From Bacteroidaceae bacterium (lineage in GTDB: Bacteria; Bacteroidota; Bacteroidia; Bacteroidales; Bacteroidaceae), in assembly GCA_024401055.1 (NCBI GenBank), contig JAKSLT010000017.1, positions 1 to 41,506 of the forward strand: a stretch of 41,506 bases of DNA. The letters are read 5' to 3'. Position 1 is the first letter of the stretch; each line of letters begins with the position of its first letter. Of the stretch, positions 4,596 through 32,726 are shown one piece after another. A program made the translations under genes and the position numbers. Under the pieces are notes generated by a model, which ran no database searches, was not told the DNA's origin, and saw only the letters and a list, made by a program, of their open reading frames with translations.

Positions 4596-4601
4596 AATTT
4601 A

Positions 4602-4690
4602 GGATTATTGGATTACTGGATTATTAGATTATCAGTTACCAACTTTCGTTGAGAAACCGATTGTCTTATAATCTTATTATCTCATTATCT
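4602..4690 (-). repeat. Intercistronic AT-rich hairpin repeat, copy 1 (nuoK-nuoL)
   Basis: On the plus strand, repeated GGATTAT/AGATTAT words lead to a core ATCAGTTACnAAC...CGTTGAGAAAC and then to TCTTATnATCTTATTATCTC words. The two flanks are partly inverted complements, so the transcript could fold into a long hairpin between cistrons. Related copies lie at 5563-5651, 6460-6558 and, with a different core, 7690-7815. The copy overlaps the nuoK stop codon. Confidence 0.8.
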
Positions 4691-4997
4691 AAAATTTCAG
4701 TTTCGTGAGCTTATCCACACCGAGGTGTGTGAGCTGACGGTAGATGTTAATCATAATGGCGATGGCAATGGCGCTTTCAGCCGCAGCGATGGCGATGGTG
4801 AAGAGGGCGAAGAAGTAGCCCTCGTGGCCTTCGGGGAAGAGCATACGGTTGAATACGGCAAAGTTGATGTCGGCTGCGTTGAGCATCAGCTCAATGGAAA
4901 GCAAGATGGCCAGCGTGGAGCGGCGTGTCAAGAAACCGTAGATACCAGCAAACATCATGATGGCCGAGAGGCCGAGGAGGCATTCAATATGTATCAT
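4689..4997 (-). CDS. nuoK: NADH-quinone oxidoreductase subunit K
   Basis: Small three-helix complex I subunit in the proton channel chain, 102 residues as usual. The two conserved buried glutamates are visible: E36 in LLSIELMLNAADINF and E74 in IAAAESAIAIAIMI. It is downstream of nuoJ (39-base gap) and upstream of nuoL (93-base gap with a repeat). Identity is secure. Confidence 0.96.
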   Translation of the reverse strand: MIHIECLLGLSAIMMFAGIYGFLTRRSTLAILLSIELMLNAADINFAVFNRMLFPEGHEGYFFALFTIAIAAAESAIAIAIMINIYRQLTHLGVDKLTKLKF

Positions 4998-5036
4998 AGT
5001 GGTAATGTTTAGCGTTGAATGTTTAATGTTTTGCAG

Positions 5037-5549
5037 TTATCTTTTACGGGCGATGACGAGTCCGCCGACGATGCAGGCGAGCAGCAGCACACTGACGGCC
5101 TCGAAGGGCAGGAGGTAGCCCTCGTGGTTGGTGCTCAACATGTTCTTGCCGATTGTGGTCATGGGCATGATAGTCTCGTCGGGACTTGTGAGTGCGGCCA
5201 CGTCGAAGCCGTGGAGGCAGAGGATGGTCATGAAGATGCCGAGGCCCACCAATGCGATGACGGCAGCACCGATATTCTTGAGGAGAGTATTCTCTGAGAG
5301 CTTGTCTTCCTTGGCGGAGGTGAGCAGCACGGCAAATACGAAGAGGACGATGACGCCTCCGGCATATACCATAGTCTGCACGGAGCCCAGGAAGGTGTAG
5401 CCCATCAGGAAGTACAGGCCTGCGGTTCCCAGAAGGACGAGCAGCAGGTAGGTGACAGCGCGCACGATGCTCTTGGTGAGCACGGTGGCAATGGAGCCGA
5501 GGGCTATCATTGCTGTCAGTACGATGAACATTATTTCAAAGGATTCCAT
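5037..5549 (-). CDS. nuoJ: NADH-quinone oxidoreductase subunit J
   Basis: Membrane subunit of complex I that contributes the bent helix next to the quinone and antiporter channels. It has 170 residues and about five hydrophobic segments, including the conserved region with TVLTKSIVRAVTYLLLVLLG and AGLYFLMGYTFLGSVQTMVY followed by AGGVIVLFVFAVLLT. The middle loop (about 115-145) is variable, as normal. It is flanked by nuoI (103-base spacer with hairpin repeat) and nuoK. Confidence 0.95.
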   Translation of the reverse strand: MESFEIMFIVLTAMIALGSIATVLTKSIVRAVTYLLLVLLGTAGLYFLMGYTFLGSVQTMVYAGGVIVLFVFAVLLTSAKEDKLSENTLLKNIGAAVIALVGLGIFMTILCLHGFDVAALTSPDETIMPMTTIGKNMLSTNHEGYLLPFEAVSVLLLACIVGGLVIARKR

Positions 5550-5562
5550 TGTTTTGATTTAT

Positions 5563-5651
5563 GGGATTATACGATTATGGGATTATGAGATTATCAGTTA
5601 CAAACGTTCGTTGAGAAACTTATAGTCTTATCATCTCATTATCTTATTCTC
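5563..5651 (-). repeat. Intercistronic AT-rich hairpin repeat, copy 2 (nuoI-nuoJ)
   Basis: Same architecture as the 4602-4690 copy: three GATTAT words, the core ATCAGTTACAAACGTTCGTT then GAGAAAC, and TCTTATCATCTCATTATCTT on the far side. The left flank GATTATGAGATTATCAG and the reverse complement of the right flank (GATAATGAGATGATAAG) match at 14 of 17 positions, which supports a stem in the nuo transcript. Confidence 0.8.
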
Positions 5652-5652
5652 T

Positions 5653-6450
5653 TTATTGCTGTGCTTCGGCAACTTTTTTAGCAAAGTTCTCTGCGGCGGT
5701 AGCCAGTTTGGTGGCCTTTGCTGCGGCCTCCTCTGCGGCTGCCTTCAGTTCGGCGTCATCGGGAGCGGCAGCAGCCTTTGCGGCGGCTTCTTCTGCGGCA
5801 ACCTTTTCTGCGGCAGCATTGTCGGCGGCCTTCTTTGCGGCGGCCATCAGTTTGGCCATCTTCTCGTCTGCGGCAGAATCTGCGGCGGGGGCGGCCGGTG
5901 CTGCGTCGGGAGTGGCATTGCCGGCTACGGGCTGACTTTCTGCGGCGGCAGCGGCAGGCTTCGGAGCTACGGCAGGCTTTGCGGGGGCGGGCTTCTCCTC
6001 ACACTTCGAATCGGGCTGGTTGAGCTGCATGATGAGGGCCTCTCGTGAGAAGACGGCGCACTCGTATTCCGGAGCGAAGGTGATGGCACCCTGCGGGCAA
6101 GCACGGGTGCAGAGCATGCAGTACATGCAGCAGCCGTGGTCATAGATGTAGCGTACGAGCTGTTTCTTTTTCTTGCCGTCAACCTCCACCATCTCGCTTT
6201 CTACCTTGATGGTACCGTTGGGGCACTGCATCTCACAGATGCCGCAGCCTATGCACTTGTGTTCGTTCTTTTCGTTATGGGGCATCACCAGCACGCCGCG
6301 GAAGCGTTCGGGGAGCTCATTGGTCTTGCGGTTTTCCGGGTAACGCTCGGTCACCTTTTTAGTGAAGAGTTCGCGGCCGGTTACTTTCAGACCGGTGCAC
6401 AGACTCTTGATACCACTAAACAGACCGCTGAAATAGGACTTGTTTTCCAT
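5653..6450 (-). CDS. nuoI: NADH-quinone oxidoreductase subunit I with long Ala/Lys-rich C-terminal tail
   Basis: Peripheral-arm subunit with two 4Fe-4S clusters (N6a/N6b) passing electrons to NuoB. Cluster motifs are C66-x2-C69-x2-C72-x3-C76-P and C108-x2-C111-x2-C114-x3-C118-P. The ferredoxin-like part ends near residue 148. The remaining ~115 residues are a low-complexity tail: a Pro/Ala linker (151-192) followed by a predicted long charged helix of Ala, Lys and Glu (about 195-263, with words such as AAAKKAAD and AEEAAAKA). Most NuoI proteins end soon after the second cluster. There is no nuoE, nuoF or nuoG nearby, so a tail on the subunit near the input end could contact an alternative partner; that is inference. 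The start is the first ATG, 103 bases before nuoJ's spacer repeat family continues. Confidence 0.94.
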   Translation of the reverse strand: MENKSYFSGLFSGIKSLCTGLKVTGRELFTKKVTERYPENRKTNELPERFRGVLVMPHNEKNEHKCIGCGICEMQCPNGTIKVESEMVEVDGKKKKQLVRYIYDHGCCMYCMLCTRACPQGAITFAPEYECAVFSREALIMQLNQPDSKCEEKPAPAKPAVAPKPAAAAAESQPVAGNATPDAAPAAPAADSAADEKMAKLMAAAKKAADNAAAEKVAAEEAAAKAAAAPDDAELKAAAEEAAAKATKLATAAENFAKKVAEAQQ

Positions 6451-6459
6451 GTTTTCTTG

Positions 6460-6558
6460 GGGATTATGAGATTATTGGATTATGAGATTATCAGTTACTA
6501 ACGCTCGTTGAAAAACTTATTGTCTTATCATCTCATTATCTTATAATCTTATTATCTC
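6460..6558 (-). repeat. Intercistronic AT-rich hairpin repeat, copy 3 (nuoH-nuoI)
   Basis: Third copy of the GATTAT...CAGTTACTAACGCTCGTTG...TCTTATCATCTCATTATC repeat. It is followed by extra AT-rich sequence with TATATATTATATATAA up to the nuoH stop codon. Confidence 0.8.
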
Positions 6559-6593
6559 TATATATTATATATAATGTGTATGTTTAGTGACTG

Positions 6594-7676
6594 TTAATTC
6601 CAAACAAAACCGAAACTTACGCACAGGGCCATTACGACGAGTAGCGTCATCGTCATGGGGAGCATATACTTCCATTCCAGAGTGAGCAACTGGTCAATAC
6701 GCAGACGGGGGAAGGTCCAGCGTTCCCAGAGCAAAAGCATCAGCACGAAGAATACCTTCAGCACGAACCATACGGCACCGGGCACATAGAGCATGATGTG
6801 GTTCCACTGTTCCCAGCCGGGAACGAGCGGTGCTGCCCATCCGCCGAGGAAGATAGTGGCGGCGATGCCGGCGCAGATGAAGAGGTTCATGTATTCGGCC
6901 AGGTAGTAGTAGCCGAAGTCCATGCCTGAGTATTCCGTGTGGTAGCCTGCGGTGAGCTCGCTCTCGGCCTCGGGCATGTCGAACGGGCCACGGTTACACT
7001 CGGCGTTGCCGGCTATCAGGTAGAGAATGAAGCACAGCACGGCGGGCACGTGGCCGCGGATGATGTTCCAGCCGAGGTTTTCCTGCTGCTGGCAGATTTC
7101 GCTGAAGCTCATGGTGCCGGTGAGGCAAATCATGGCGAGCATTATCATGCCGATGGAGAGCTCGTAGCTGATAATCTGGGCACCGGAGCGCATGGCACCG
7201 ATGAGCGAATACTTGTTGTTGGCCGACCATCCGGCGAGCAGTATGCCTACCACGCCGATGCTGCTGATGGCGAGGAAGAAGAACACGCCGACGTTGAAGT
7301 CGATAATCTGCGCGCCTTTGTTCCAGGGCAGGCAGGAGAAGGTGGTCATCGAGGCGGTGATGACGAGGAAGGGTGCCACGTGGTGAAGCAGCTGGTCGGT
7401 GTTGCGGAAGTTGACGATTTCTTTCGTCATCATCTTCAGCACGTCGCAGAACACCTGCAGCAAGCCCCAGGGACCTACGCGGTCGGGGCCGAGGCGGCAC
7501 TGGAACCAGGCGCACACCTTGCGTTCCATGTAAATCATGACGATGGCAAACACGGCGTAGAGCGTGATGATAACCAGAGCTACCAGCACACACTCGATGA
7601 GCACGGTAGCCCAGGCGGGCAGGAAGCTCATCAGCAGCGTGTCAAGCCATTGCGTTACTATATTAAAATCAAACAT
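6594..7676 (-). CDS. nuoH: NADH-quinone oxidoreductase subunit H
   Basis: Membrane subunit at the junction of the arms; forms much of the quinone-binding pocket. It has 360 residues, slightly longer than E. coli NuoH. Signatures are FQCRLGPDRVGPWGLLQ near residue 60, the acidic loop NRGPFDMPEAESELTAGYHT then EYSGMDFGYYYLAEY (about 230-265), and ERWTFPRLRIDQLLTLEWK near the C-terminus. Gaps of more than 130 bases on both sides contain members of the AT-rich repeat family. Confidence 0.97.
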   Translation of the reverse strand: MFDFNIVTQWLDTLLMSFLPAWATVLIECVLVALVIITLYAVFAIVMIYMERKVCAWFQCRLGPDRVGPWGLLQVFCDVLKMMTKEIVNFRNTDQLLHHVAPFLVITASMTTFSCLPWNKGAQIIDFNVGVFFFLAISSIGVVGILLAGWSANNKYSLIGAMRSGAQIISYELSIGMIMLAMICLTGTMSFSEICQQQENLGWNIIRGHVPAVLCFILYLIAGNAECNRGPFDMPEAESELTAGYHTEYSGMDFGYYYLAEYMNLFICAGIAATIFLGGWAAPLVPGWEQWNHIMLYVPGAVWFVLKVFFVLMLLLWERWTFPRLRIDQLLTLEWKYMLPMTMTLLVVMALCVSFGFVWN

Positions 7677-7689
7677 ATTAAAATAATTT

Positions 7690-7815
7690 AGATTATGCGA
7701 TTATTAGATTATAAGATTACCTCTGCCTTTCGCCATGCTTCAAGTTTCTCAAAAGGGAATAGCATTCTGCAACGGTAACTTATTATCTTATTATCCTATT
7801 ATCTTATTATCTCAT
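7690..7815 (-). repeat. Diverged intercistronic AT-rich repeat, copy 4 (nuoCD-nuoH)
   Basis: Flanks are the same kind of words as in the other three spacers (GATTATGCGATTATTAGATT on one side, TATTATCTTATTATCCTATT on the other). The central CAGTTAC...CGTTGA core is replaced by about 60 bases of unrelated sequence. Inverted complementarity of the flanks is kept, so pairing rather than the core may be what is conserved. Confidence 0.6.
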
Positions 7816-7817
7816 CT

Positions 7818-9389
7818 CTACCTGTCCACATCGGGAATGATATAGTCTATCGTGCCGCCGATGGTGATGAGGTCGGCCAGCAGATGGCCGCGGCAGGCCT
7901 TGTCCATGACGTTCACCAGGGGCAGACCGGTGCTGCGGTAGTGCAGGCGGTAGGGGGTCTTGTCGCCCTTCGACTCCAGATAGACGCCCAAGATGCCACG
8001 GCTGCCTTCCACGGCGCTGTAGTACGTGCCTTCGGGCACCTTGATGATGGGCTTCATCTTTTCCTGGATGGGGCCTTCGGGAATGTTGTCGATGAGCTGG
8101 CGGATGATGTCGCAGCTCTCCTCGATTTCCTTCAGACGCACCATGTAGCGGTCCAGGGAGTCGCCGTTCTCGAAGGTGATCTCATTAAACTTCACGCGGT
8201 CGTAGGCAGCGTAGGGGCGGAGCTTGCGCAGGTCGCAGTGCCATCCTGCGGCACGGCCCGTACCGCCGGTGCAGCCGTAGCTGATGACGTCGTCCTTGCT
8301 CAATACGCCCACGCCCTTGGCACGGGTCTGGAAGATGACGTTTCCGGTGAATATCTCGTGGTATTCCTTCAGTCCGTGAGGGATGACCTCGTCGATGAGG
8401 CGGTGTACGTCCTTCACGAAGTCGGGGTGCAGGTCGTGGGCCACGCCGCCAATCATGTTGTAGTTGAGGATGAGGCGTCCGCCGCAGGTCTTCTCGAATA
8501 TCTTCAGGATTTCCTCGCGGTCGCGGAAGCCGTAGAGGAAGGCGGTGGTGGCACCGAGATCCTGGGCCAGACAGCTGAAGAAGAGGATGTGGCTGTCGAT
8601 ACGTTGCAGCTCATCCATAATCGTGCGGATGACCTGCACTCTTTCGCTTACCTCTATACCCATGGCCTGCTCCACGCACATGCAGAGGGCGTGGCGCGTC
8701 TGCATGGCACCGAGGTAGTCCATGCGGTCGGTGAGGCCGAGGCACTGGGGATAGGTGTAGCCTTCGGAGAGTTTTTCTATGCCGCGGTGGATGTAGCCCA
8801 TGTGGGCGTCGATTTTCGTCACGGTCTCGCCTTCGAGGCTGGTGCGGAAGTGCAGCACGCCGTGGGTGGAGGGGTGCTGCGGGCCGATGTTCACCACGTA
8901 GTCGTTCTCGCCGAAGATGGGCGTCTCGGTCTTCTTCACCTTGCCGTCCTCGTTCAGCGTGAAGCACACGGCCTTGTCGCTGATGGGCTCGGACTCGAGG
9001 AAGAACTCGGGGTTCTGGCTCTCGTCGTAGTCCTTGCGGAAGGGGTAGCCAATCCAGTCCTCGCGCAGGAACACGCGGCGGCAGTCGGGATTGTTCAGGA
9101 ACTTGATGCCGTAGAAGTCGTAGGCCTCGCGCTCATAGATGCCGGCCACGGCCCAGAGGTCGCAGACGCTGTCGAGGTAGGGGTTCTCCTTGTCGGCGCA
9201 CACGCTCTTGACGTGTGTCATCTCGCCGGTGGCCGTCTTCGTCAGACTATACACCACGCCAAGTCCTTCCTCGCCCCAGTCCACGCCGGTGAGCACTTCC
9301 AGGAAGTCGTAGCCCTCGGCCTTGAGGCTGGCCAGGGTGGCGTGCAGCTCTGCCGCAGCCACTATTTGGGGATTGATTTGATTGCTCAT
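7818..9389 (-). CDS. nuoCD: Fused NADH-quinone oxidoreductase subunit C/D
   Basis: Peripheral-arm subunits C and D in one 523-residue chain, as in other Bacteroidales and E. coli. The NuoC part is about residues 1-135 (EREAYDFYGIKF, then FLREDWIGYPFRKDY). The NuoD part starts near NYVVNIGPQHPSTHGVLH and holds HMGYIHRGIEKL, and ends with IDYIIPDVDR. NuoD lines the quinone pocket with NuoB. The NuoC region is short at its N-terminus; the upstream sequence shows no better in-frame start. It lies between nuoB (116-base gap with a GC-rich repeat fragment) and nuoH. Confidence 0.97.
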   Translation of the reverse strand: MSNQINPQIVAAAELHATLASLKAEGYDFLEVLTGVDWGEEGLGVVYSLTKTATGEMTHVKSVCADKENPYLDSVCDLWAVAGIYEREAYDFYGIKFLNNPDCRRVFLREDWIGYPFRKDYDESQNPEFFLESEPISDKAVCFTLNEDGKVKKTETPIFGENDYVVNIGPQHPSTHGVLHFRTSLEGETVTKIDAHMGYIHRGIEKLSEGYTYPQCLGLTDRMDYLGAMQTRHALCMCVEQAMGIEVSERVQVIRTIMDELQRIDSHILFFSCLAQDLGATTAFLYGFRDREEILKIFEKTCGGRLILNYNMIGGVAHDLHPDFVKDVHRLIDEVIPHGLKEYHEIFTGNVIFQTRAKGVGVLSKDDVISYGCTGGTGRAAGWHCDLRKLRPYAAYDRVKFNEITFENGDSLDRYMVRLKEIEESCDIIRQLIDNIPEGPIQEKMKPIIKVPEGTYYSAVEGSRGILGVYLESKGDKTPYRLHYRSTGLPLVNVMDKACRGHLLADLITIGGTIDYIIPDVDR

Positions 9390-9436
9390 GTCTTTAATAC
9401 TTCATTGCCTCTGGATGATTACCCTTTAGCGGTAAT

Positions 9437-9498
9437 CCCCCCCTCCCTTTTCGGGGCGGGGCGTCAAAGTGCCGCAGGCAGCCTTGACGGGGTGAGGC
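9437..9498. repeat. GC-rich palindromic element, partial copy in the nuoB-nuoCD spacer
   Basis: Holds CCCCCCTCCC, GGGGCGGGG and then GCCGCAGGCAGCCTTGACGG followed by GGTGAGGC. The last part closely matches the right arm of the elements at 17672-17843 and 18821-18993 (GCCGCAGGCAGCCCTGACGG and GGAGAGGC). It has one arm only, so it is a partial or decayed member. Confidence 0.7.
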
Positions 9499-9505
9499 TT
9501 TTTCT

Positions 9506-10159
9506 TTATGCTTTCTCCTGCATGTTGAGCAGCTCCTTGTTGAGTTTGCTCATTTGCTCAGCATACGGGTCTTTCTGGTGTTTGTTCACTCTGCCGAAGA
9601 AATGCTCCACGCGCACCTTCCTCTGCAACTGCATCATGGCATAGAGGAATGACTCGGGGCGGGGCGGGCATCCGGGGCAATATACATCCACGGGCAGGAT
9701 TTTGTCCACGCCTTTCACCACGTGGTAGCTCTTCGTGAAGGGGCCGCCGCTGATGGCGCAGCCGCCGATGGCGATGACGTACTTCGGGTCGGCCATCTGG
9801 TCGTACAGGCGCTTGAGCACGGGGGCCATCTTCGTGGTGATGGTGCCGTTGACGAGGATGACGTCGGCCTGGCGGGGGCTGTTGCGCGTGATTTCAAAGC
9901 CGAAGCGCGCCATGTCGTAGCGGGCTGCGGCCACGGCCATGAACTCAATGCCGCAGCAACTCGTGGCAAAAGTCAGCGGCCACATGCTGTGGCTGCGGCC
10001 GAGGTTGATAAGGCGGTCCAGAGGGGCCACCACTACGTTCACGCCGCCCTCGTTGAGCTCTTCGATGAGCTTCTCAAGCGTGGCGTTGTCCTTAAATTCC
10101 TCGTGGGGAATGTTGTTGATGGCCGGTGTGTAGCCAATGATGTTTTTCTTTACTCCCAT
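9506..10159 (-). CDS. nuoB: NADH-quinone oxidoreductase subunit B
   Basis: Carries the terminal N2 4Fe-4S cluster that reduces quinone. The ligands are visible: adjacent C68-C69 in TSCCGIEFM, C134 in GGCAISGG and C164 in YCPGCPPRP. At 217 residues it has an extended, charged C-terminus (about 180-217, KVRVEHFFGRVNKHQKDPYA onward) beyond the conserved core. Its start overlaps the 3' end of nuoA by 10 bases, which indicates translational coupling. Confidence 0.97.
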   Translation of the reverse strand: MGVKKNIIGYTPAINNIPHEEFKDNATLEKLIEELNEGGVNVVVAPLDRLINLGRSHSMWPLTFATSCCGIEFMAVAAARYDMARFGFEITRNSPRQADVILVNGTITTKMAPVLKRLYDQMADPKYVIAIGGCAISGGPFTKSYHVVKGVDKILPVDVYCPGCPPRPESFLYAMMQLQRKVRVEHFFGRVNKHQKDPYAEQMSKLNKELLNMQEKA

Positions 10160-14616: not shown

Positions 14617-16233
14617 ATGAGAAAATATATATTCGCAATAGCTTTCGTGGCCGCAACCGGACTGCAGGCCCAGAACGTATATGAAATAGAGCGCGCCAGC
14701 AGCCTCGACCTCAACGGCACGGCCCGCTCCGTGGGTATGGGCGGCGCCATGAACGCCCTCGGCGCCGACCTCAGCACGATGAGCGGCAACCCGGGCGCCA
14801 TCGGCCTCTATCGTCGCAGCGACTTCGCCCTGACGGCTTCCGTGCAGACGCAGAAGGGCGCCCAAAGCTTTGGCCAGCAAAGCAAGACACGCGGCTCCTT
14901 CGACCAGGCCGGTATGGTGTATTCCTTCCAGACGGGCGGCGACAAGGTGCGCTTCGTCAACTTCGGCTTCAACTATCAGAAGACGCGCAACCTCAAACAG
15001 TTTATCGGCACCGACGGATGGGTGTCGCTCTTTAACCCTGAGACGGGAGACAGCCCCTCGCAACTTTGGCGCCTCGGCGACCAGCTTGCCGGCGCTGCCG
15101 TGGGCTTTCCCATCGTTGGCGATGACGTGGACTTCCCTGACTATAACTCGCCCGTCAGCAACGGTGCCTATGATGCCGGTCTGCTTGAGATCGTTGACGA
15201 TGGCAACGGCTACGGCAAGAAGGTGCTCTCGCCCGCTTCCTCCGAGGCCTACCGCTATTCCCGTGCAAACTGGGGACACGTTAACACCTACGACATTAAC
15301 ATGGCCTTCAACATCAAGGACCGCGCATACTTCGGCGTGACGGCCGGTATCTATGAGGTGAGCATGGGCTCCCGCCTCTATTATGAGGAAATACTCCAGG
15401 CCGGCGCAGGAAACCAAAAGGAATACAGCTACGGCCTCTCCGAAGACTCCCGTATGCACGGCACGGGCTTCGACATGAAGTTCGGTCTCGTGGTACGCCC
15501 CATCGAGGAAAACCCCTTCCGCTTCGGCATAGCCTTCCACACGCCCCGCGTGCTCTCCCTGACGCAGAGCAAGTGGTGCCAGTTTGATACGCAAACGCCT
15601 ATCTACACCGAGAAGGCCGTGTGCGACGAACTTGCCACTGGCTCATACGACTACAATATCCGCACCCCCTGGCGCCTGCAGTTGAGCGCCGCCACCACCG
15701 TGAGCGACTGGCTTGCTCTCGACGCCGAGTACGAGCTGGCCAACTGTAGCAAGACGGCCGTGAAGTATCCTGACCATTACACATACGACGGCCCCTCTCT
15801 CATTGACAGCGAGCTCGACCGGTTCGTCGATAACGAGGTGGACTACTGCCTCCGTCCGCAGCACACCGTGCGCCTCGGTGCCGAAGCCCGCTTCGCCGGT
15901 AATTTCTACGGCCGTATCGGCTACAACTTCGTGAGCTCCCCCTTCAAGAAGGAGGCCTTCCTCAACCTGCCCCCCGCAGAGTCCACCGGCGATTATAGCG
16001 AAGTGACCAACTCAACGTATAACGCCACCTCCACCGACTACATCAACCTCGGCAACACCAACCGCCTCTCCCTCGGCCTCGGCTGGCACGGCAAGAACGT
16101 GTATTTCGACGCCGCCTACATCCTGCAGAACCAGAGTGCAGACGCCTACATGTTTGATGACGTGGACCTCAAACCCTTCGAGATGGACATCGTGCGCCAC
16201 AGCGCCCTGTTTACCTTCGGCGTGAAGTTCTAA
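14617..16233 (+). CDS. OmpP1/FadL-like outer membrane beta-barrel protein
   Basis: The 538-residue protein has a signal peptide ending LQAQ. The start of the mature part, ASSLDLNGTARSVGMGGAMN then ALGADLSTMSGNPGAIGLYR, is typical of Bacteroidetes OmpP1/FadL/PorV-like barrels (often labelled 'hemin receptor' in databases). Many alternating aromatic strands follow and the last residue is Phe (SALFTFGVKF), as in barrel proteins. It probably moves a hydrophobic or unknown substrate across the outer membrane; the substrate cannot be told. It is between the low-complexity secreted protein and the U32 peptidase, 32 bases upstream of the latter. Confidence 0.8.
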   Translation: MRKYIFAIAFVAATGLQAQNVYEIERASSLDLNGTARSVGMGGAMNALGADLSTMSGNPGAIGLYRRSDFALTASVQTQKGAQSFGQQSKTRGSFDQAGMVYSFQTGGDKVRFVNFGFNYQKTRNLKQFIGTDGWVSLFNPETGDSPSQLWRLGDQLAGAAVGFPIVGDDVDFPDYNSPVSNGAYDAGLLEIVDDGNGYGKKVLSPASSEAYRYSRANWGHVNTYDINMAFNIKDRAYFGVTAGIYEVSMGSRLYYEEILQAGAGNQKEYSYGLSEDSRMHGTGFDMKFGLVVRPIEENPFRFGIAFHTPRVLSLTQSKWCQFDTQTPIYTEKAVCDELATGSYDYNIRTPWRLQLSAATTVSDWLALDAEYELANCSKTAVKYPDHYTYDGPSLIDSELDRFVDNEVDYCLRPQHTVRLGAEARFAGNFYGRIGYNFVSSPFKKEAFLNLPPAESTGDYSEVTNSTYNATSTDYINLGNTNRLSLGLGWHGKNVYFDAAYILQNQSADAYMFDDVDLKPFEMDIVRHSALFTFGVKF

Positions 16234-16265
16234 CAGTAAGTGCGAACGGCTTACCCGAACATCTT

Positions 16266-18113
16266 ATGCGCCGCATAGAACTCCTTGCTCCCGCCCGCGA
16301 CCTTGAGACGGGGCGTCAGGCCATCCTCCACGGAGCCGACGCCGTGTATATCGGCGGCCCGGGGTTCGGCGCGCGCCAGGCAGCGGGAAACTCCCTCGAA
16401 GACATCGCCGCATTGTGCGCGTTTGCCAAGCCCTACGGCGTGCGCATCTATGTGACCGTCAATACCCTTATTTATGAAGACGAACTGCGTGAGGTGGAGA
16501 GCCTCACGCAGTCTTTGTATCAGTGTGGCGTGAGTGCCCTCATCGTGCAGGACCTCGCGCTGCTGCGTCTTGACTGTCCGCTGCCGCTCCATGCCAGCAC
16601 GCAGATGGACAACCGCTCTCCCGAGAAGGCCCGCCTCCTGCAGCAACTCGGCTACGAGCAGATGGTGCTGGCCCGCGAACTCTCCCTCGACGAGATACGC
16701 GCTATCCATGCCGCTGCCCCCGAAATCACTCTCGAGGCTTTCGTCCACGGCGCCCTCTGCGTAAGTTACAGCGGCCGTTGTCAGGCCTCGCAGCATTGTT
16801 TCCAGCGCTCCGCCAACCGCGGCCAGTGCGCGCAGTTCTGCCGCCTCGCCTTCGACCTTGTCGATGCCGACGGCCGCATCCTGGAGCACGACCGCCACCT
16901 CCTCTCCCTGCGCGATATGAACCGCTCCGCCTCGCTCGAGGAAATGATAGACGCTGGCGTGAGCAGCTTCAAGATAGAGGGCCGTCTCAAGGACGTGGCC
17001 TACGTCAAGAACGTCACGGCCTACTACCGCCGCGAGCTCGACCGCATCATCGCACGCCGCTCCGACTTGGAGCGCAGCTCGCAGGGCGAGCACACTTTCC
17101 AGTTCACGCCCAATCCCGAGCGTTCTTTCAACCGCCATTTCACGGAGTATTTTCTCCACGGCCGCCAGGGCGACGAGCATTGCCACTACACGCCGAAAGC
17201 CATTGGCGAGCCCATAGGAAAAGTGCAGACGACGGGCTCTGGCTGGATTGACGTCCGCCTCCTTCCCGGCGTTGCCCTTGCCAACGGCGACGGCCTCTGC
17301 TTCTTCGATGCCGACCACCGCCTGCAAGGCTTCCGCGTAAACCGCGCCGAGGGCTCCCGCGTCTTCCTCGTCGGCTCTGTCCCCGCCGGTCTTTCGCTCG
17401 CCACGCCTCTCTTCCGCAATCAGGACGCTGCCCTCGACGCCCGCCTTTCTAAGCCCAGTGCCGAGCGCCGCATGCCCCTCGACATCGTTCTCACCGACGA
17501 CCTCCTCGAGCAGACCTACGAACTGGCCCGCACCCCGCAAGAGGAAAATATCCGCCGCCAGATGTCCCGCCTCGGCGACACGCCTTATTATCTCCGCTCC
17601 CTCGACATTCGCTTCTCCCAAAACTGGTTTATCCCCAGCAGCCATTTGGCAGCGCTGAAGCGCAAGATAGTAAGCCCCTCCCCGTCGGAGCCTCCTGCGG
17701 AGCTCCGCCACCCCTCCCCCTGTAGGGAGGGGGAGAATGCACCTGCGGTTAAAGACGCGCTTGCGACCTTTAGGGGTAATCTCCCCTCCCTACAGGGGGA
17801 GGGGTGGCGGAGCTCCGCAGGAGGCTCCGACGGGGAGGGGCTTGAAATGGGCGGAGGCCTATCCAACCACCTTGCCCGCGAAGTGGCTGCCGCGCTCGGC
17901 CTCTCCATGCCCACGGCCCTTGAGGTCGGCTCCAACGACGAGCCCCTCATGCGTTGCCGTTATTGTCTGCGCCATGCTCTCGGCCAGTGTCCGCGCGAGA
18001 CAGGCCACGCCCCCTCGTGGCGAGAGCCCCTTGCCCTCCGCCTGCCCGACGGCAGAAGTTTCCCCCTTAAATTCGATTGCTCACGATGCGAAATGCTGGT
18101 TTTGCCTTCCTGA
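16266..18113 (+). CDS. U32 family peptidase (RlhA-like) with in-frame palindromic insertion
   Basis: U32 proteins are radical-type RNA hydroxylation or collagenase-like enzymes. This one has the U32 signatures LAPARDLETGRQAILHGADA near the N-terminus, HGALCVSYSGRCQASQHC and RSANRGQCAQFCRLAFDLVD (the Cys set expected to bind an Fe-S cluster) and SFKIEGRLKD. Length is 615 residues. Residues ~470-526 are not enzyme sequence: they are encoded by a 172-bp palindromic element at 17672-17843 (SPSPSEPPAELRHPSPCREG at one end, LQGEGWRSSAGGSDGEGL at the other). The family sequence resumes after it with Cys-rich RCRYCLRHALGQCPRETGHA then FDCSRC. Reading is continuous, so the protein could be functional with a surface insert. 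Its 3' end overlaps the next gene by 28 bases. Whether it acts on rRNA like E. coli RlhA is inference. Confidence 0.85.
   Translation: MRRIELLAPARDLETGRQAILHGADAVYIGGPGFGARQAAGNSLEDIAALCAFAKPYGVRIYVTVNTLIYEDELREVESLTQSLYQCGVSALIVQDLALLRLDCPLPLHASTQMDNRSPEKARLLQQLGYEQMVLARELSLDEIRAIHAAAPEITLEAFVHGALCVSYSGRCQASQHCFQRSANRGQCAQFCRLAFDLVDADGRILEHDRHLLSLRDMNRSASLEEMIDAGVSSFKIEGRLKDVAYVKNVTAYYRRELDRIIARRSDLERSSQGEHTFQFTPNPERSFNRHFTEYFLHGRQGDEHCHYTPKAIGEPIGKVQTTGSGWIDVRLLPGVALANGDGLCFFDADHRLQGFRVNRAEGSRVFLVGSVPAGLSLATPLFRNQDAALDARLSKPSAERRMPLDIVLTDDLLEQTYELARTPQEENIRRQMSRLGDTPYYLRSLDIRFSQNWFIPSSHLAALKRKIVSPSPSEPPAELRHPSPCREGENAPAVKDALATFRGNLPSLQGEGWRSSAGGSDGEGLEMGGGLSNHLAREVAAALGLSMPTALEVGSNDEPLMRCRYCLRHALGQCPRETGHAPSWREPLALRLPDGRSFPLKFDCSRCEMLVLPS
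17672..17843. repeat. GC-rich palindromic element inside the U32 gene
   Basis: Two perfectly complementary 61-base arms (17672-17732 and 17783-17843) flank a 50-base centre. Arms start AAGCCCCTCCCCGTCGGAGC and contain GCCACCCCTCCCCCTGTAGG. Because of the symmetry, the opposite strand is also open and encodes the same peptides. Target duplication cannot be defined from one copy. Perfect arms imply recent arrival or active correction. Confidence 0.95.
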
Positions 18114-19660
18114 GCGCTCTCCTCTGCGCCATGCTTTGCTTCGTAGCCTGCGCTGACGACGACCGCGTCGTGGTGGAGGGCGACGACGTTGTCTATGCCG
18201 GCATGCAGCCCGTCGATTCCCTCTCGTTCCGCACCCTCCATCACTATTGGAAAGGCTATCGCTTCCACACCACCGACACGCTCGGCATACTCTCCTCCGT
18301 GCCGACATACCGCTGGACGCCCGACACGCTGCAAGTGGAGCGGGGCCGTGAGTTCGTGGTGGCCGACATCGTGTGCGTCCCCACTGACACGCCGGACAGC
18401 ATCTGGCTCAAGATGGTTCTCGTCTCCGACACGCTCCTCCTCCAAGGCTGGACGAGCGAGGCCGACCTCCTTGCCGTGTCCCGTCCCACGCATTTCGTGG
18501 CGCGCCTGCTCTCTTTCCTCGGCCCGCTGGCCGACGTGCCGGGCGGCGACTACCCCGACGCATGGCTCGATTTCTATTTCCACCCCACGGCCAACCCCTT
18601 CCTCCTTCCCTGGCCCATGGCCTGCGTCGTCATCGGCCTGTGGGCACTTTTCATTGCCCTCCTCGCACTCCTCGACAAATATCTCATAGAGCCCTACCGT
18701 TACCGTTGCGGCCGCTGCGGTGCCCCGCTGCGAAAGCTGGGAAAGTGCCCGTGCTGCGGGGCGGTGAATGAAAGAGAAACGACGACAGACCCTACGACGA
18801 GCTCTACGCACAGCCCTATTCCCAGCCTCTCCCCGTCAAAGCTTCCTTCGGAACTTTGCCACCCCTCCCCTGTTAGGGAGGGGGAGGATACTCTTGCCAA
18901 TGAAGAAAGCATTTCCTGCAATGTAATATCCCCCTCCCTAACAGGGGAGGGGTGGCAGGGTGCCGTAGGCAGCCCTGACGGGGAGAGGCTGGGGGTGAAA
19001 TGCGACGGTGCCGTAGGCAGCCCTGACGGGGAGAGGCTGGGGGTGAGATGCGACGATGCCGCAGGCAGCCCTGACGGGGAGAGGCTGGGGGAGATACTCC
19101 TTCACTGCTGCTGTGCCCCTTGTTCTTCCGCCATTCTCGAATGGATGCTGGCCAACGGCGTGCGCCCCGTGCTCTATTACTGCAACCCCAACATATACCC
19201 CCAAGAGGAGTACCTCATTCGCAAGAACGAACTCATGCGCCATGCCCAGCGTCTGGGGCTGCGTGTCATAGATGATGACTACGACCACGAAGCATGGCTC
19301 GCCGCCGTGCGCGGTCTCGAGAATGAACCCGAGCGCGGCAGCCGTTGTCTGCAATGCTTCAAGTATCGCCTCCTGCGCACCGCGCGTGTGACGCAGCAAC
19401 TTGGCCTGCGGGAGTTCACCACTACGCTCGCCTCGTCGCGCTGGAAGTCCCTCGACCAAATAAACGAGGCCGGCACCTGGGCTGCCGCCGAGGTGAATGC
19501 CTCACTTCCCGAAGGCGCAGCCCCCGTGGCGTTCAACGCCCGCAACTGGCGAAAGGGCGGTCTTCAGGAACGCCGTAACCAACTCCTCCGCGAGTACGGC
19601 TTCTATAACCAGCAGTACTGCGGCTGCGAGTTCTCAATCCGCAATACCGATACTTTGTAA
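18086..19660 (+). CDS. queH: Membrane zinc-ribbon protein fused to epoxyqueuosine reductase QueH
   Basis: One 524-residue frame holds two unrelated parts. Residues 1-228: a signal or lipobox-like start (CFVAC, C22), a soluble domain, a transmembrane helix (~174-197) and a zinc ribbon CGRCG...CPCCG (C208, C211, C221, C224). I do not recognise this protein. Residues 336-524: QueH, which reduces epoxyqueuosine to queuosine in tRNA, with HCCCAPC (340-346), CLQC (421-424) and YCGC (511-514). Residues ~246-336 are encoded by a GC-rich palindrome plus three 48-bp tandem units (16-residue repeat with GSPDGERLG). No ATG lies near the QueH start; only GTG codons within the 48-bp units could start a separate QueH. 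I chose ATG 18086 over a TTG nine bases earlier. It could be a true fusion or two proteins from one frame. Confidence 0.8.
   Translation: MRNAGFAFLSALLCAMLCFVACADDDRVVVEGDDVVYAGMQPVDSLSFRTLHHYWKGYRFHTTDTLGILSSVPTYRWTPDTLQVERGREFVVADIVCVPTDTPDSIWLKMVLVSDTLLLQGWTSEADLLAVSRPTHFVARLLSFLGPLADVPGGDYPDAWLDFYFHPTANPFLLPWPMACVVIGLWALFIALLALLDKYLIEPYRYRCGRCGAPLRKLGKCPCCGAVNERETTTDPTTSSTHSPIPSLSPSKLPSELCHPSPVREGEDTLANEESISCNVISPSLTGEGWQGAVGSPDGERLGVKCDGAVGSPDGERLGVRCDDAAGSPDGERLGEILLHCCCAPCSSAILEWMLANGVRPVLYYCNPNIYPQEEYLIRKNELMRHAQRLGLRVIDDDYDHEAWLAAVRGLENEPERGSRCLQCFKYRLLRTARVTQQLGLREFTTTLASSRWKSLDQINEAGTWAAAEVNASLPEGAAPVAFNARNWRKGGLQERRNQLLREYGFYNQQYCGCEFSIRNTDTL
18821..18993. repeat. GC-rich palindromic element at the zinc-ribbon/QueH joint
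   Basis: Arms of 64 bases (18821-18884 and 18930-18993) are perfectly complementary at their outer part (CCCAGCCTCTCCCCGTCA) and inner part (GCCACCCCTCCCCTGTTAGG), with mismatches between. Same family as 17672-17843. It is read in frame as SLSPSKLPSELCHPSPVREG ... SLTGEGWQGAVGSPDGERLG. Confidence 0.9.
18959..19091 (+). repeat. 48-bp tandem repeat, 2.8 units
   Basis: Units begin at 18959, 19007 and 19055. Each contains GCAGGCAGCCCTGACGGGGA or GTAGGCAGCCCTGACGGGGA followed by GAGGCTGGGGG. The unit is the outer right arm of the palindrome plus a short GTGAAATGCGAC tail. Period 48 keeps the frame and encodes a 16-residue repeat immediately before QueH. Confidence 0.9.
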
Positions 19661-19670
19661 TTAGATGTCA

Positions 19671-19717
19671 GCGTCGCGGTGTGCCGCCATTCTTTAGCGC
19701 ACGCCGCGTCTTTTTTT
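19671..19717 (+). terminator. Terminator after the zinc-ribbon/QueH gene
   Basis: GTCGCGGTGTGC (19673-19684 region) pairs with GCACGCCGCGTC (19699-19710), allowing a G-U pair and one mismatch, and is followed directly by seven T residues. It begins 11 bases after the stop codon. Confidence 0.75.
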
Positions 19718-19731
19718 GCCGACAGGGTGTA

Positions 19732-19815
19732 TTTCCCACAATTGTGGGAAAATATTTTGACAATTGTGGAAAAATATTTTAACATATGTGGAAATTAATT
19801 TTCACATATGTGGAA
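19732..19815. repeat. Cluster of CCACA-NN-TGTGG palindromes
   Basis: A perfect 20-bp palindrome TTTCCCACAATTGTGGGAAA (19732-19751) is followed by half or near-complete versions: CAATTGTGGAAAA, CATATGTGGAAA and TTCACATATGTGGAAA. AAAATATTTTGACAA sits between them. Units resemble relaxed DnaA boxes (TTTTCCACA), but nothing else suggests an origin. Confidence 0.7.
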
Positions 19816-19891
19816 ACGTTTTTAGTTGGGGATTTATGCGCAGCAAACGGGGGAGAGAGGGAAGGGGAAGGTAAAAAAATCGGACTGTTTC

Positions 19892-19922
19892 TTGTATAGT
19901 TCGCTGAAAAGTAGTAATTTTG
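19892..19922 (+). promoter_or_regulatory. Predicted promoter of the small RNA
   Basis: TTG at 19892-19894 (in TTTCTTG), a 20-base gap and TAATTTTG at 19915-19922 match the Bacteroidetes consensus; start expected near 19929. No reading frame of note begins downstream on this strand. Confidence 0.65.
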
Positions 19923-19928
19923 CAACCG

Positions 19929-20097
19929 AAAGCCGGCCGGTCGTCATAACACGTCGGAGGGTAGAACGATAGAGTGTCCGTGGCAACACGGCGGCAGGAT
20001 AAATGGCGAGCGCCGCTTCGGCGGTACAGTCCCCTGCTTATAGATTAACTGTTACTTAAAGAGGGCGTGTCGAAACCGACACGCCCTCTATCTTTTG
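19929..20097 (+). ncRNA. Putative stand-alone structured small RNA, class unknown
   Basis: About 170 bases between a consensus promoter and a strong terminator, with no gene on that strand after it. Visible folds are CCGTG-GCAA-CACGG (19978-19991, GNRA tetraloop), CCGC-TTCG-GCGG (20013-20024, UUCG tetraloop) and an enclosing GCAGG (19994-19998) with CCTGC (20033-20037). I see no RNase P, tmRNA or SRP signature. 6S RNA was considered (CAGTCCCCTG is shared with the E. coli molecule), but the overall layout does not obviously fit. It could also be a trans-acting regulator. The exact ends are inferred. Confidence 0.55.
20061..20097 (+). terminator. Rho-independent terminator of the small RNA
   Basis: GAGGGCGTGTCG - AAAC - CGACACGCCCTC, a perfect 12-bp stem, is followed by TATCTTTTGTATTTTC. 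On the minus strand it lies about 35 bases after the TlpA-like gene and could end that transcript too, though its T-run there is short. Confidence 0.9.
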
Positions 20098-20131
20098 TAT
20101 TTTCAATAGGATACTTTAGTTCTGGGAAATG

Positions 20132-21541
20132 CTATTGGGTCAGAATGTCTTCAAGTTGCTTGATATTGCCGCCATTTTTGTCCCATCCAGTAAGGTGTTT
20201 TATCAACTTGCCATCGCGCCCGTAAATAAGATAATGTGGAATCGAACCGATGTATCCGGGTATGTTCATTTTCTTGATTTCTGCCTCTGTAAAGATAAAA
20301 TGGTCGCCATTGTGCTTCTTCTTCAACTCAAGGAAACCATCAGTAGAGGAACTGTTGTCGGTGATATAAACAAAGTCAACTCCGCGCTTTTCATAGTTAT
20401 CTTTCACGGTCGCCATTTCCTTGATGCCCATCTTGCAAGGGCCGCACCAAGTGGCCCAAAAGTCAATATAGACAATCTTGCCTGAATGGCGCTCCACGAT
20501 TTGTTGCAACCATGTGGCAGGATCGCCCGTAGGTCGCCAATCGTGATTGATGGCGTCAGCGTTTTTCAGAATTTCATCTATAATGCGACCTTTAAGTTCA
20601 AATAGGGGCTGCTGAAATTCAAAAGACAGTTTTTTTATATCCTCTGATGGCACATTGCGAAACGCCTTGAGTTCTGCCACCATATTCTCCACTTTGAGTC
20701 GCTCTTGTAAGTATTTTCCAAAGGGTTGCTCGGTTAAACCGTTTGCTTCCAAATAGGCATAGTGTTCTGTGCCAAAATAATAAGCGCCATCGATACTGAG
20801 AGGAAATATCAAGGATTGGGCGTGAGGGTCCCGTAGAGTCACCTGCGATGTGAAGGCTCGCATTTCAACAGAGTCACAATTGATGATCGATTTATTGGAT
20901 TCGTAACTCTTGACATTACGCAAGTATAAATTCTCCATTATCATCTGCAAATGTATTTTCTCTTCTGGATTGAGCAGAGAAGCCTTTATCGTGTCCAGAT
21001 ATGCTAAATGCTTCTGCCAAAAACGCTCACGGTAATCAACGAAACTCTCATCGCGGTGGGCCTCCAAATACTTTGTATCTATAACCAATGCGTCCCATTG
21101 CAACTTAGCCGACAGGTTCTTGTATTCAGGGGAAGTCTGCCAATAGCCGCCCCTGATTTTTATTGCGTCTTGAGTCAGACTTCTGTCTTGCAGTTCCTTG
21201 CCCTGTTTCCATTTCAGATAATCCATCTCAATGTCTATCGTGTCGCCCGGACACAATAACCTCGGGAATGACTGGTCACAGACACTAAATTTAAAATTCA
21301 TTGGCCAGCACATATCCCATTTCATACAGAAAGTGCCAAGTGTGTCAATTACATCATAAGGACAAGGCTCCGACTTAATGTTAGACGGTCCGCCCCAATA
21401 ATCAAGCACATGCTCTATGTCTTGCGGAAGGCCCGTCACATGGCCACGAATCACTGTGGTGGCATATTTGCGAGGCCAATTTTGCGCATTAACACTTGCC
21501 ATTATGAATATGGCAGTTATAGCAAAGAGAATCTTCTTCAT
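20132..21541 (-). CDS. TlpA-like thioredoxin-fold protein, secreted
   Basis: Envelope thiol-disulphide protein of the TlpA/ResA kind. It has 469 residues from the ATG at 21541 (an upstream TTG adds only three residues). A signal peptide (MKKILFAITAIFIMASVNAQ) is followed by a long N-terminal region (~25-335) without a motif I recognise, as in Bacteroidetes DUF4369-type TlpA proteins. The thioredoxin domain (~345-469) holds the active site WCGPC (365-369) and the cis-Pro loop SIPHY (P435). Base composition is clearly more AT-rich than in the genes on either side, which suggests later acquisition. It stands alone, convergent with the small RNA. Confidence 0.88.
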   Translation of the reverse strand: MKKILFAITAIFIMASVNAQNWPRKYATTVIRGHVTGLPQDIEHVLDYWGGPSNIKSEPCPYDVIDTLGTFCMKWDMCWPMNFKFSVCDQSFPRLLCPGDTIDIEMDYLKWKQGKELQDRSLTQDAIKIRGGYWQTSPEYKNLSAKLQWDALVIDTKYLEAHRDESFVDYRERFWQKHLAYLDTIKASLLNPEEKIHLQMIMENLYLRNVKSYESNKSIINCDSVEMRAFTSQVTLRDPHAQSLIFPLSIDGAYYFGTEHYAYLEANGLTEQPFGKYLQERLKVENMVAELKAFRNVPSEDIKKLSFEFQQPLFELKGRIIDEILKNADAINHDWRPTGDPATWLQQIVERHSGKIVYIDFWATWCGPCKMGIKEMATVKDNYEKRGVDFVYITDNSSSTDGFLELKKKHNGDHFIFTEAEIKKMNIPGYIGSIPHYLIYGRDGKLIKHLTGWDKNGGNIKQLEDILTQ

Positions 21542-21672: not shown

Positions 21673-21978
21673 CTACTTGAAGATAAAGTAAACAGCTAGG
21701 ATGAGGCAGACGAATGCTGCCAGGTGGTTCCAATGCAGGTGTTGCCCCTGAAACATCAGATTAGCAATGACGCAAAATACGATGAGCTATATGGCTTCCT
21801 GTATGGCTTTGAGTTGTATAAGGGAGAAGTGACCTCCGTTGCCTATGAAACCTATACGGTTGGCAGGCACCATGACGCTATACTCAAAGAAGGCGATGCA
21901 CCATGAGAAGAAGATGACGCCGATGTGGGGCCAGTGGGTGCTGATGCCTGTCTGCTGGAGTTTGAGGTGGGCGCGCAA
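21673..21978 (-). pseudogene. Truncated, nonsense-mutated copy of the DUF486 gene
   Basis: Minus-strand translation gives HLKLQQTGISTHWPHIGVIF, then FSWCIAFFEYSVMVPANRIG, then IQEAI-stop-LIVFCVIANLMF and finally LAAFVCLILAVYFIFK. It matches the intact DUF486 protein at 25408-25776 closely all the way, but a TAG replaces a serine codon after IQEAI and the first ~23 residues (first helix) are missing. There is no frameshift, so the stop is probably recent. The lost N-terminus ends at a small hairpin (GCGCAAG-T-CTTGCGC, 21973-21987) and a 24-bp repeat shared with 25271-25294. Confidence 0.85.
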
Positions 21979-25408: not shown

Positions 25409-25776
25409 TATTCCATAAAGACGAAATAGACGGCGAGGATGAGGCAGACGGCGGCAGCGAGATGATTCCAGTGGAGTTGCTGGCCCTGAAAGAGCATGTT
25501 GGCGATGATGCAGAAGACGGTGAGGGAGAGAACTTCCTGGATTATCTTAAGCTGCATGAGTGTGAAGGGGCCGCCGTTGCCGATGAAGCCGATGCGGTTG
25601 GCGGGAATCATGACGCAATACTCGAAGAAGGCGATGCACCACGAGAAGAGAATGACGGCGATGAGGGGCCAGTGGGTGCTGACGCCGATTTGCTGGAGCT
25701 TGAGGTGGCCGTACCACGCGAGGGTCATGAGCACGTTGCTGACGATGAGCAACAGGATTGTCCAAAGTCCGTTCAT
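25408..25776 (-). CDS. DUF486 (DMT superfamily) small membrane protein
   Basis: Small four-helix membrane protein of 122 residues. It matches DUF486 proteins, a DMT-like family with no firmly known substrate. Helices lie at about 4-20, 33-52, 80-97 and 103-120, and the conserved segments WCIAFFEYCVMIPANRIGFI and GPFTLMQLKIIQEVLSL are present. Its start overlaps the pheS stop by one base (TGATG), so it is translationally coupled to pheS. A dead paralogue lies 3.4 kb downstream at 21673-21978. Confidence 0.85.
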   Translation of the reverse strand: MNGLWTILLLIVSNVLMTLAWYGHLKLQQIGVSTHWPLIAVILFSWCIAFFEYCVMIPANRIGFIGNGGPFTLMQLKIIQEVLSLTVFCIIANMLFQGQQLHWNHLAAAVCLILAVYFVFME

Positions 25777-31741: not shown

Positions 31742-31870
31742 TGTCTAATATCAGAGAGTCCGTTAAAACTTCAATCTCAACCAATTATTTGCGTATTAAC
31801 TCGTAAAAAGACGAGGAGTTTATCCCTGCCGGAGGTAAGTGGTTGTTCTTAGTCGGCATTTAGTCATCAT

Positions 31871-31961
31871 GGCCACAGCTGTGACGCATACTTGGCCACA
31901 GTAGTGACCGATACTTGGCCACAGCTGTGACGCATACTTGGCCACAGCTGTGGCCAAGACG
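31871..31961. repeat. 23-bp tandem array of CCACAGCTGTGG palindromes
   Basis: Units start at 31871, 31894, 31917 and 31940, each GGCCACAGCTGTGACGCATA then CTT or a close variant (GGCCACAGTAGTGACCGATA). The last unit ends in the full palindrome TTGGCCACAGCTGTGGCCAA. The core CCACA-GC-TGTGG has the same outline as CCACA-AT-TGTGG and CACA-TA-TGTG at 19732-19815. Confidence 0.9.
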
Positions 31962-32662: not shown

Positions 32663-32726
32663 CCTTCTCCCTAACAGGTGGGGGGCAAAGAGCCTTAGAC
32701 AACTTTGTCGGGGAGGGGCCTGGGGA
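32663..32726. repeat. GC-rich palindromic element, partial copy before the PAP2 gene
   Basis: CCTTCTCCCTAACAGGTGGG to GTCGGGGAGGGGCCTGGGGA matches the right arm of the 18821-18993 element (CCCTAACAGGGGAGGGG ... GACGGGGAGAGGCTGGGG). The left arm is absent. Confidence 0.7.

Follow-up and report, generated by a model that had tools for sequence, protein, structure and literature searches.

In a 41,506-nt stretch of DNA from an uncultured Bacteroidaceae bacterium (assembly GCA_024401055.1, contig JAKSLT010000017.1; the window, from the genome designated G000), a zinc-ribbon membrane protein and the epoxyqueuosine reductase QueH are encoded by a single open reading frame (ORF), in which the two parts are joined through a GC-rich palindrome and a short tandem array. 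Sequence comparisons make it probable that the palindrome is a copy of a CGTC-tagged element, similar to repetitive extragenic palindromic (REP) sequences, that has spread through this genome, with copies in frame inside genes and dimers that have replaced the stop and start codons at gene junctions. G, C and L numbers are used below for genomes, contigs and loci, respectively. The components of the joined frame are as follows.

18086..18790, + strand: zinc-ribbon membrane protein part, with a signal-like helix at the N-terminus, a single long hydrophobic helix and a CxxC..CxxC ribbon (membrane nature assessed by eye)
18823..18991, no strand: REP dimer of 169 nt, two inverted 61-nt arms with CGTC tags outward, phase 2
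18959..19091, + strand: array of a 48-bp (16-codon) unit, 2.8 copies, 96% matches
18995..18997, + strand: in-frame GTG, candidate internal start
19043..19045, + strand: in-frame GTG, candidate internal start nearest QueH
19094..19657, + strand: QueH (epoxyqueuosine reductase) domain, PF02677, native start lost; stop codon at 19658-19660

The first-pass annotation of the window had described two proteins placed in one frame by a palindrome and 2.8 copies of a 48-bp unit, and this description is borne out: the frame is uninterrupted from an ATG at 18086 (or a TTG at 18077) to the stop codon ending at 19660, and runs from the zinc-ribbon membrane protein through a repeat-derived linker into QueH. 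The inverted arms of the linker (18821-18885 and 18929-18993) are 89% complementary, and each 48-bp unit comprises the outer portion of an arm and ∼13 further nt. The RNA of the region 18815-19110 has a predicted folding energy of -183.1 kcal/mol (z -10.1), with none of 200 shuffles equally stable, and there are no Rfam matches at the gathering threshold in 16000-21000. The zinc-ribbon part shares 62% identity with a stand-alone protein in the congener G009. The QueH domain matches PF02677 with an E value of 2.2e-57 (194 bits against a cut-off of 23.5 bits) and retains the HxCCAPC, CxxC and CGC motifs; the cysteines are invariant, and of the 69 columns without variation among 28 relatives none is altered here.

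The two genes are separate in congeners

A queH gene is present in 13 of 58 genomes of the genus, G000 included, and in three of these (G000, G009 and G071) it adjoins the zinc-ribbon gene (phmmer, both strands). The neighbors are separate genes in both G009, where the zinc-ribbon gene has its own stop codon and queH its own ATG, and G071, and neither has repeats of this kind between them. An AT-rich repeat, different in sequence, lies between the two genes in G009 (L022). Directly 3' of the array, the G000 sequence picks up again at ILLHCCCAPC. By this comparison, the dimer occupies the former site of the zinc-ribbon stop codon and the QueH start, in agreement with the earlier proposal that the element replaced the QueH start region. 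In named genomes (the best 80 of 158 queH loci, with flanks of up to 4 kb), none of the 80 loci has a zinc-ribbon gene beside queH (phmmer, both strands) and none carries a REP arm.

A dispersed CGTC-tagged palindrome

Further copies of the element are present in the window, including a dimer in the U32 gene, the next gene upstream of the joined frame.

16266..18113, + strand: U32 peptidase-family gene with DUF3656 (PF01136, PF12392), host of a 172-nt dimer
17672..17843, no strand: REP dimer of 172 nt, in frame inside the U32 gene, 61-nt arms 100% complementary
9440..9500, - strand: single REP arm in phase 2, near the C-terminus of ORF 7779-9641
32666..32719, - strand: degenerate single REP arm (E 1.1e-7)

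A BLAST search with the 17672-17843 copy gave at least 109 matches in its own genome (40 of 123 candidates scored), and an arm model applied to 438 kb of selected stretches, drawn from the 40 scored candidates and from among the matches listed, identified 137 unique arms in 99 clusters. An arm is organized as a short lead, CGTC, a stem-loop and CCA, followed by a second hairpin formed by CCCCTCCC and GGGAGGGG. A single regular expression fits 84 of 123 full-length arms, and the stems, of 5+4 bp with one bulged C, are perfectly paired in 83 of the 84 despite nine outer and five inner sequence combinations. The loop as paired is TNC (3 nt), or 5 nt with the last C-G pair open. The tag is CGTC in 79 fitting arms and CGCC in 5, with the pattern itself requiring a CGTC-like tag, and the tail is CCA in 70, ACA in 12 and other in 2, with the pattern itself requiring NCA. 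Of the 39 arms outside the pattern, 30 were inspected, and these differ in the form of the stem or loop or contain mismatches. Neighboring arm pairs no more than 300 nt apart are predominantly tag-outward (37 of 48), with 10 in tandem and 1 tag-inward.

A degenerate arm pattern has 121 matches in G000, where the reversed pattern has none, and it has 5 in G071 and 2 in G009. By BLAST, the element is present in 3 of the 58 genus members, G000 among them, and in 1 of 295 genomes that sample the order, the sole positive being G000. A 48-bp-like unit with the same junction as the array recurs at L059, which weakens a purely local origin for the array. The fusion had been described as repeat mediated, and the replaced junction agrees with this, but the repeats are not local: they belong to a copy of a CGTC-REP-like element that is dispersed in the genome, lies in frame within many genes and has also fused a second gene pair.

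Copies inside genes favor one phase

Among stop-to-stop ORFs the arms lie mostly in one phase, phase 2, which encodes the peptide SLSPSxLPxxLxHPSPxREGE, a spacer of ∼14 residues, and SPSLxGEGWQxxxGSPDGERL. Of the 99 clusters, 23 lie at least 60 codons within an ORF, and 21 of these are in phase 2, a phase with a 44% share (145 of 329) of the open frames of the arms (binomial P 2.9e-6). In-frame dimers add ∼57 residues and single arms ∼20. In the first fetched set, 13 of 29 dimers are coding with a margin of at least 40 codons, all 13 in phase 2, and in 8 of them this phase is open on both strands. A dimer length of 1 mod 3 is found in 12 of the 13 coding dimers versus 5 of the 16 others (Fisher P 0.0018).

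The host genes are varied. Pfam domains or conserved sequence flank the insert in a DPPIV/S9 protein, a GH20 protein, LpxK, a RecD-like helicase, an EptA-like protein, a ResB/CcsA protein, the U32 protein, a MatE protein (a MATE transporter, with two matched stretches, the location being known for the later one), a glycosyltransferase (with a second domain match under the family cut-off) and two fusions; the internal dimers or arms of these hosts are in phase 2. The DPPIV insert is missing from all seven congener orthologues, which have a short loop instead (an eighth genome, G002, gave weak matches only), and lies just after what we take to be the nucleophile-elbow motif. The corresponding segment of the RecD-like helicase, from match coordinates, is 3 to 42 nt in six of six congeners versus ∼70 residues in G000, and the U32 gene of G009 has a shorter, unrelated linker at the site of the 172-nt dimer. 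The ResB/CcsA gene was considered as a further fusion and ruled out, as both domains are in one ORF in G004 and G061.

G071 has 13 arms, one of which is placed 60 codons or more within an ORF. It is a single in-frame arm, in phase 2, preceding the LDLCAAPGGKS motif of an RsmF-like rRNA methyltransferase (L263:2223-3602, G071:C35), and it is missing from the aligned orthologues of G000, G009, G032 and G061; insertion therefore continued after the species split. A shared ancestral insert is ruled out for this gene, as G000 is without the arm.

A second fusion, of aroE and a HAD phosphatase gene

At L084:3167-4939 (G000:C93), aroE and a HAD phosphatase gene form one ORF by way of a 172-nt dimer, and in G009 they are two overlapping but separate genes. 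There is no ATG, GTG or TTG between 4010 (inside aroE) and 4290 (the limit of the scan) of L084. Since the genes at both the queH and the aroE/HAD junctions are separate in congeners, element-borne fusion arose at least twice. A longer dimer is present upstream of aroE (L084:3036-3316), in frame into the end of the preceding ORF and at the native aroE start site; aroE may start from an upstream ATG through this element or from a GTG at 3326 just after it.

How the joined frame may be read

It is an even question whether the main product of the joined frame is a single protein in which a disordered linker of ∼100 residues precedes a QueH held at the cytoplasmic face of the inner membrane; the cytoplasmic-side tethering is suggested by the order of the parts, and confidence in a single product is held at this level because non-ATG starts are common among QueH relatives. 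An AlphaFold model, built from 29 sequences with no relatives of the N-terminal half in the alignment and numbered without the first Met, has a mean predicted local distance difference test (pLDDT) score of 57. The QueH domain is mostly confident, residues 175-204 form a long helix, and residues 229-332 are below pLDDT 50.

The spread of the element could be explained by a transposase acting in trans that would move the hairpin as single-stranded DNA, with selection presumably purging out-of-frame insertions. The palindrome is often arranged as compact tag-outward dimers of ∼172 nt, and at both junctions a dimer now occupies the former place of the upstream stop and the downstream start, making one ORF of two. 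A broader and more tentative proposal, which we hold as possible but somewhat doubtful, is that REP dimers serve as portable coding linkers, locked to one frame and often with both strands open, through which operon neighbors are welded into multidomain proteins such as a membrane-tethered epoxyqueuosine reductase and an AroE-phosphatase.

Contrary evidence and alternative explanations

Several observations weigh against a spreading, frame-selected element and a translated fusion. Of the 23 clusters deep within ORFs, two depart from phase 2: one in phase 1 on the N-terminal side of the glycosyltransferase ORF noted above (L076:3781) and one in phase 0 upstream of DUF6625 (L230), where translation may begin farther downstream. 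The stretches were picked for their resemblance to a coding dimer, a choice that favors compact dimers, and from among the matches listed, so that the intragenic fraction is not exhaustive. The 23 clusters are partly dependent, as some host genes contain more than one, and for each the best ORF over six frames was used. The ResB/CcsA ORF (L075:560-2143, G000:C43) is ∼180 to 220 residues shorter than its counterparts in G004 and G061 around the in-frame dimer, as if the element arrived with a deletion, and some in-frame copies may therefore be in damaged genes. The G000 assembly resembles a metagenomic draft (83% complete, 103 contigs), and the array copy number may be misassembled. No significant arm match is found within 1.5 kb of the four Y1_Tnp genes of G000, Y1_Tnp being the class covered by the transposase search; the sole hit, in L053, is at chance level (E 0.61). 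No direct repeat of at least 4 nt is present at the ends of any of 18 compact dimers. Lastly, a purine-rich GGGGAGAGGCTGGGG directly precedes an in-frame GTG in each of two array copies, 7 of the 80 named loci lack an in-frame ATG ahead of the QueH motif, and the candidate QueH starts in G021 comprise one TTG only.

Two candidate classes for the element were rejected on these grounds: association with a REP-associated tyrosine transposase (RAYT), with 0 of 4 Y1_Tnp genes flanked by a significant arm match, and a miniature inverted-repeat transposable element (MITE) with target-site duplication, with 0 of 18 compact dimers having one. The four Y1_Tnp genes (L051-L054) are IS200-like, and some are flanked by their own short palindromes, as judged by eye; these are unrelated to the element and are perhaps separate REP systems.

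The strongest alternative, a credible one that we place a little below an even chance, is that most QueH is initiated at one of the array GTGs (19043 or 18995), after the Shine-Dalgarno-like purine stretch, such that the incoming zinc-ribbon frame matters little. The last in-frame ATG 5' of the QueH motif is at 18617, within the zinc-ribbon part, followed by in-frame GTGs at 18764 and then, within the array, at 18995 and 19043. The first-pass annotation was thus correct that no ATG is available just before the motif, but this is not unusual in the family. In QueH, starts at GTG or TTG seem to be common, and because of the named loci and G021 noted above, initiation at an array GTG would be unremarkable; the loci without an in-frame ATG before the motif are L096 (G021), L149, L154, L163, L173, L174, L180 and L208. 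In relatives whose start region was inspected, the ATG is mostly 6 to 22 residues before the motif, a spacing that a start at 19043 resembles (the QueH of L104, from G068, is truncated by a contig end, with its start region outside the data). Against internal initiation, no stop codon separates the zinc-ribbon and QueH parts, a very stable RNA hairpin is predicted at the array region, and read-through must work at the aroE/HAD fusion, if HAD is made, as no start codon is available there.

It is unlikely that the locus is decaying or silent, or that the fusion is an artifact of binning or assembly. The fragmented draft, the tendency of tandem repeats to collapse and the patchy occurrence of QueH in the genus are compatible with this, but QueH has no stop codon and keeps every invariant column unaltered, a 48-nt unit preserves the frame at any copy number, and the same construction is present at the unrelated aroE/HAD locus. 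Least probable by far is an ancestral natural fusion whose linker repeats grew later: a repeat-rich linker and a gene order common to relatives would fit, but G009 and G071 have two genes with their own stop and start, and the linker is a dispersed element present at many other loci.

The window has further repeats. Four tandem 22-bp AT-rich units lie just after queH (19738-19825), 8-bp-phased CTTATTAT-like repeat blocks are in four places in 4601-7821, a 23-bp unit, TGGCCACAGCTGTGACGCATACT, is present in 3.6 copies at 31870-31952, and 21680-21973 and 25418-25711 form a 294-bp direct repeat with 77% identity.

Relation to known systems

The closest relatives by description are the CGTC-tagged REPs, a super-family reported in five phyla including the Bacteroidetes (PMC3733652). 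In the available portions of that report, these have a stem of ∼8 to 9 bp, a loop of 4 to 5 nt and a 3-nt tail fitting CCA; they are without linked transposases, HH (head-to-head) dimers prevail, and some units are intragenic in several species, with dimers or groups encoding 20 to 30 residues and clusters encoding 43 to 82 in two species (PMC3733652). The element described here shares the CGTC tag, the paired stem, the CCA tail, tag-outward dimers, the lack of a linked Y1_Tnp gene and intragenic units. It differs in its compound arm, with a second hairpin after the CGTC hairpin, in its 1-nt stem bulge, in its compact ∼172-nt dimer encoding ∼57 residues, and in fusing adjacent genes, of which there is no mention in those portions of PMC3733652.

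The way of working resembles that of the Rickettsia palindromic elements (RPE; Ogata et al. 2000, 2002), which are described in the accessible parts of PMC10969869 and PMC3733652 as ∼150-bp palindromes in frame in unrelated genes and encoding a conserved peptide, and of which RPE-4 and RPE-6 have been placed in CGTC families (PMC3733652). In-frame insertion into unrelated genes, one conserved peptide and orthologues without the insert are common to both, a likeness of description rather than of compared sequence; the host phylum and the gene-gene fusions made by the element set the two apart. In open-licence papers, searched at the level of titles and abstract openings, there is no report of coding palindromes in Bacteroidales or of REP-made gene fusions, and what is new here on that basis is the Bacteroidales host, the large, compound, frame-locked CGTC-REP dimer and the fusion of neighboring genes. 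Compared with an ordinary QueH (PF02677), the fused protein keeps the cysteine motifs, but its N-terminus is an element-encoded linker preceded in frame by a membrane zinc-ribbon protein.

Coding palindromes have been known chiefly as a peculiarity of Rickettsia, and here about two dozen clusters lie deep within Bacteroidales ORFs. Insert-free congeners at the compared sites make insertion, frame selection and the effect on the protein testable, and the two element-borne fusions suggest a simple route from mobile DNA to new fused proteins.

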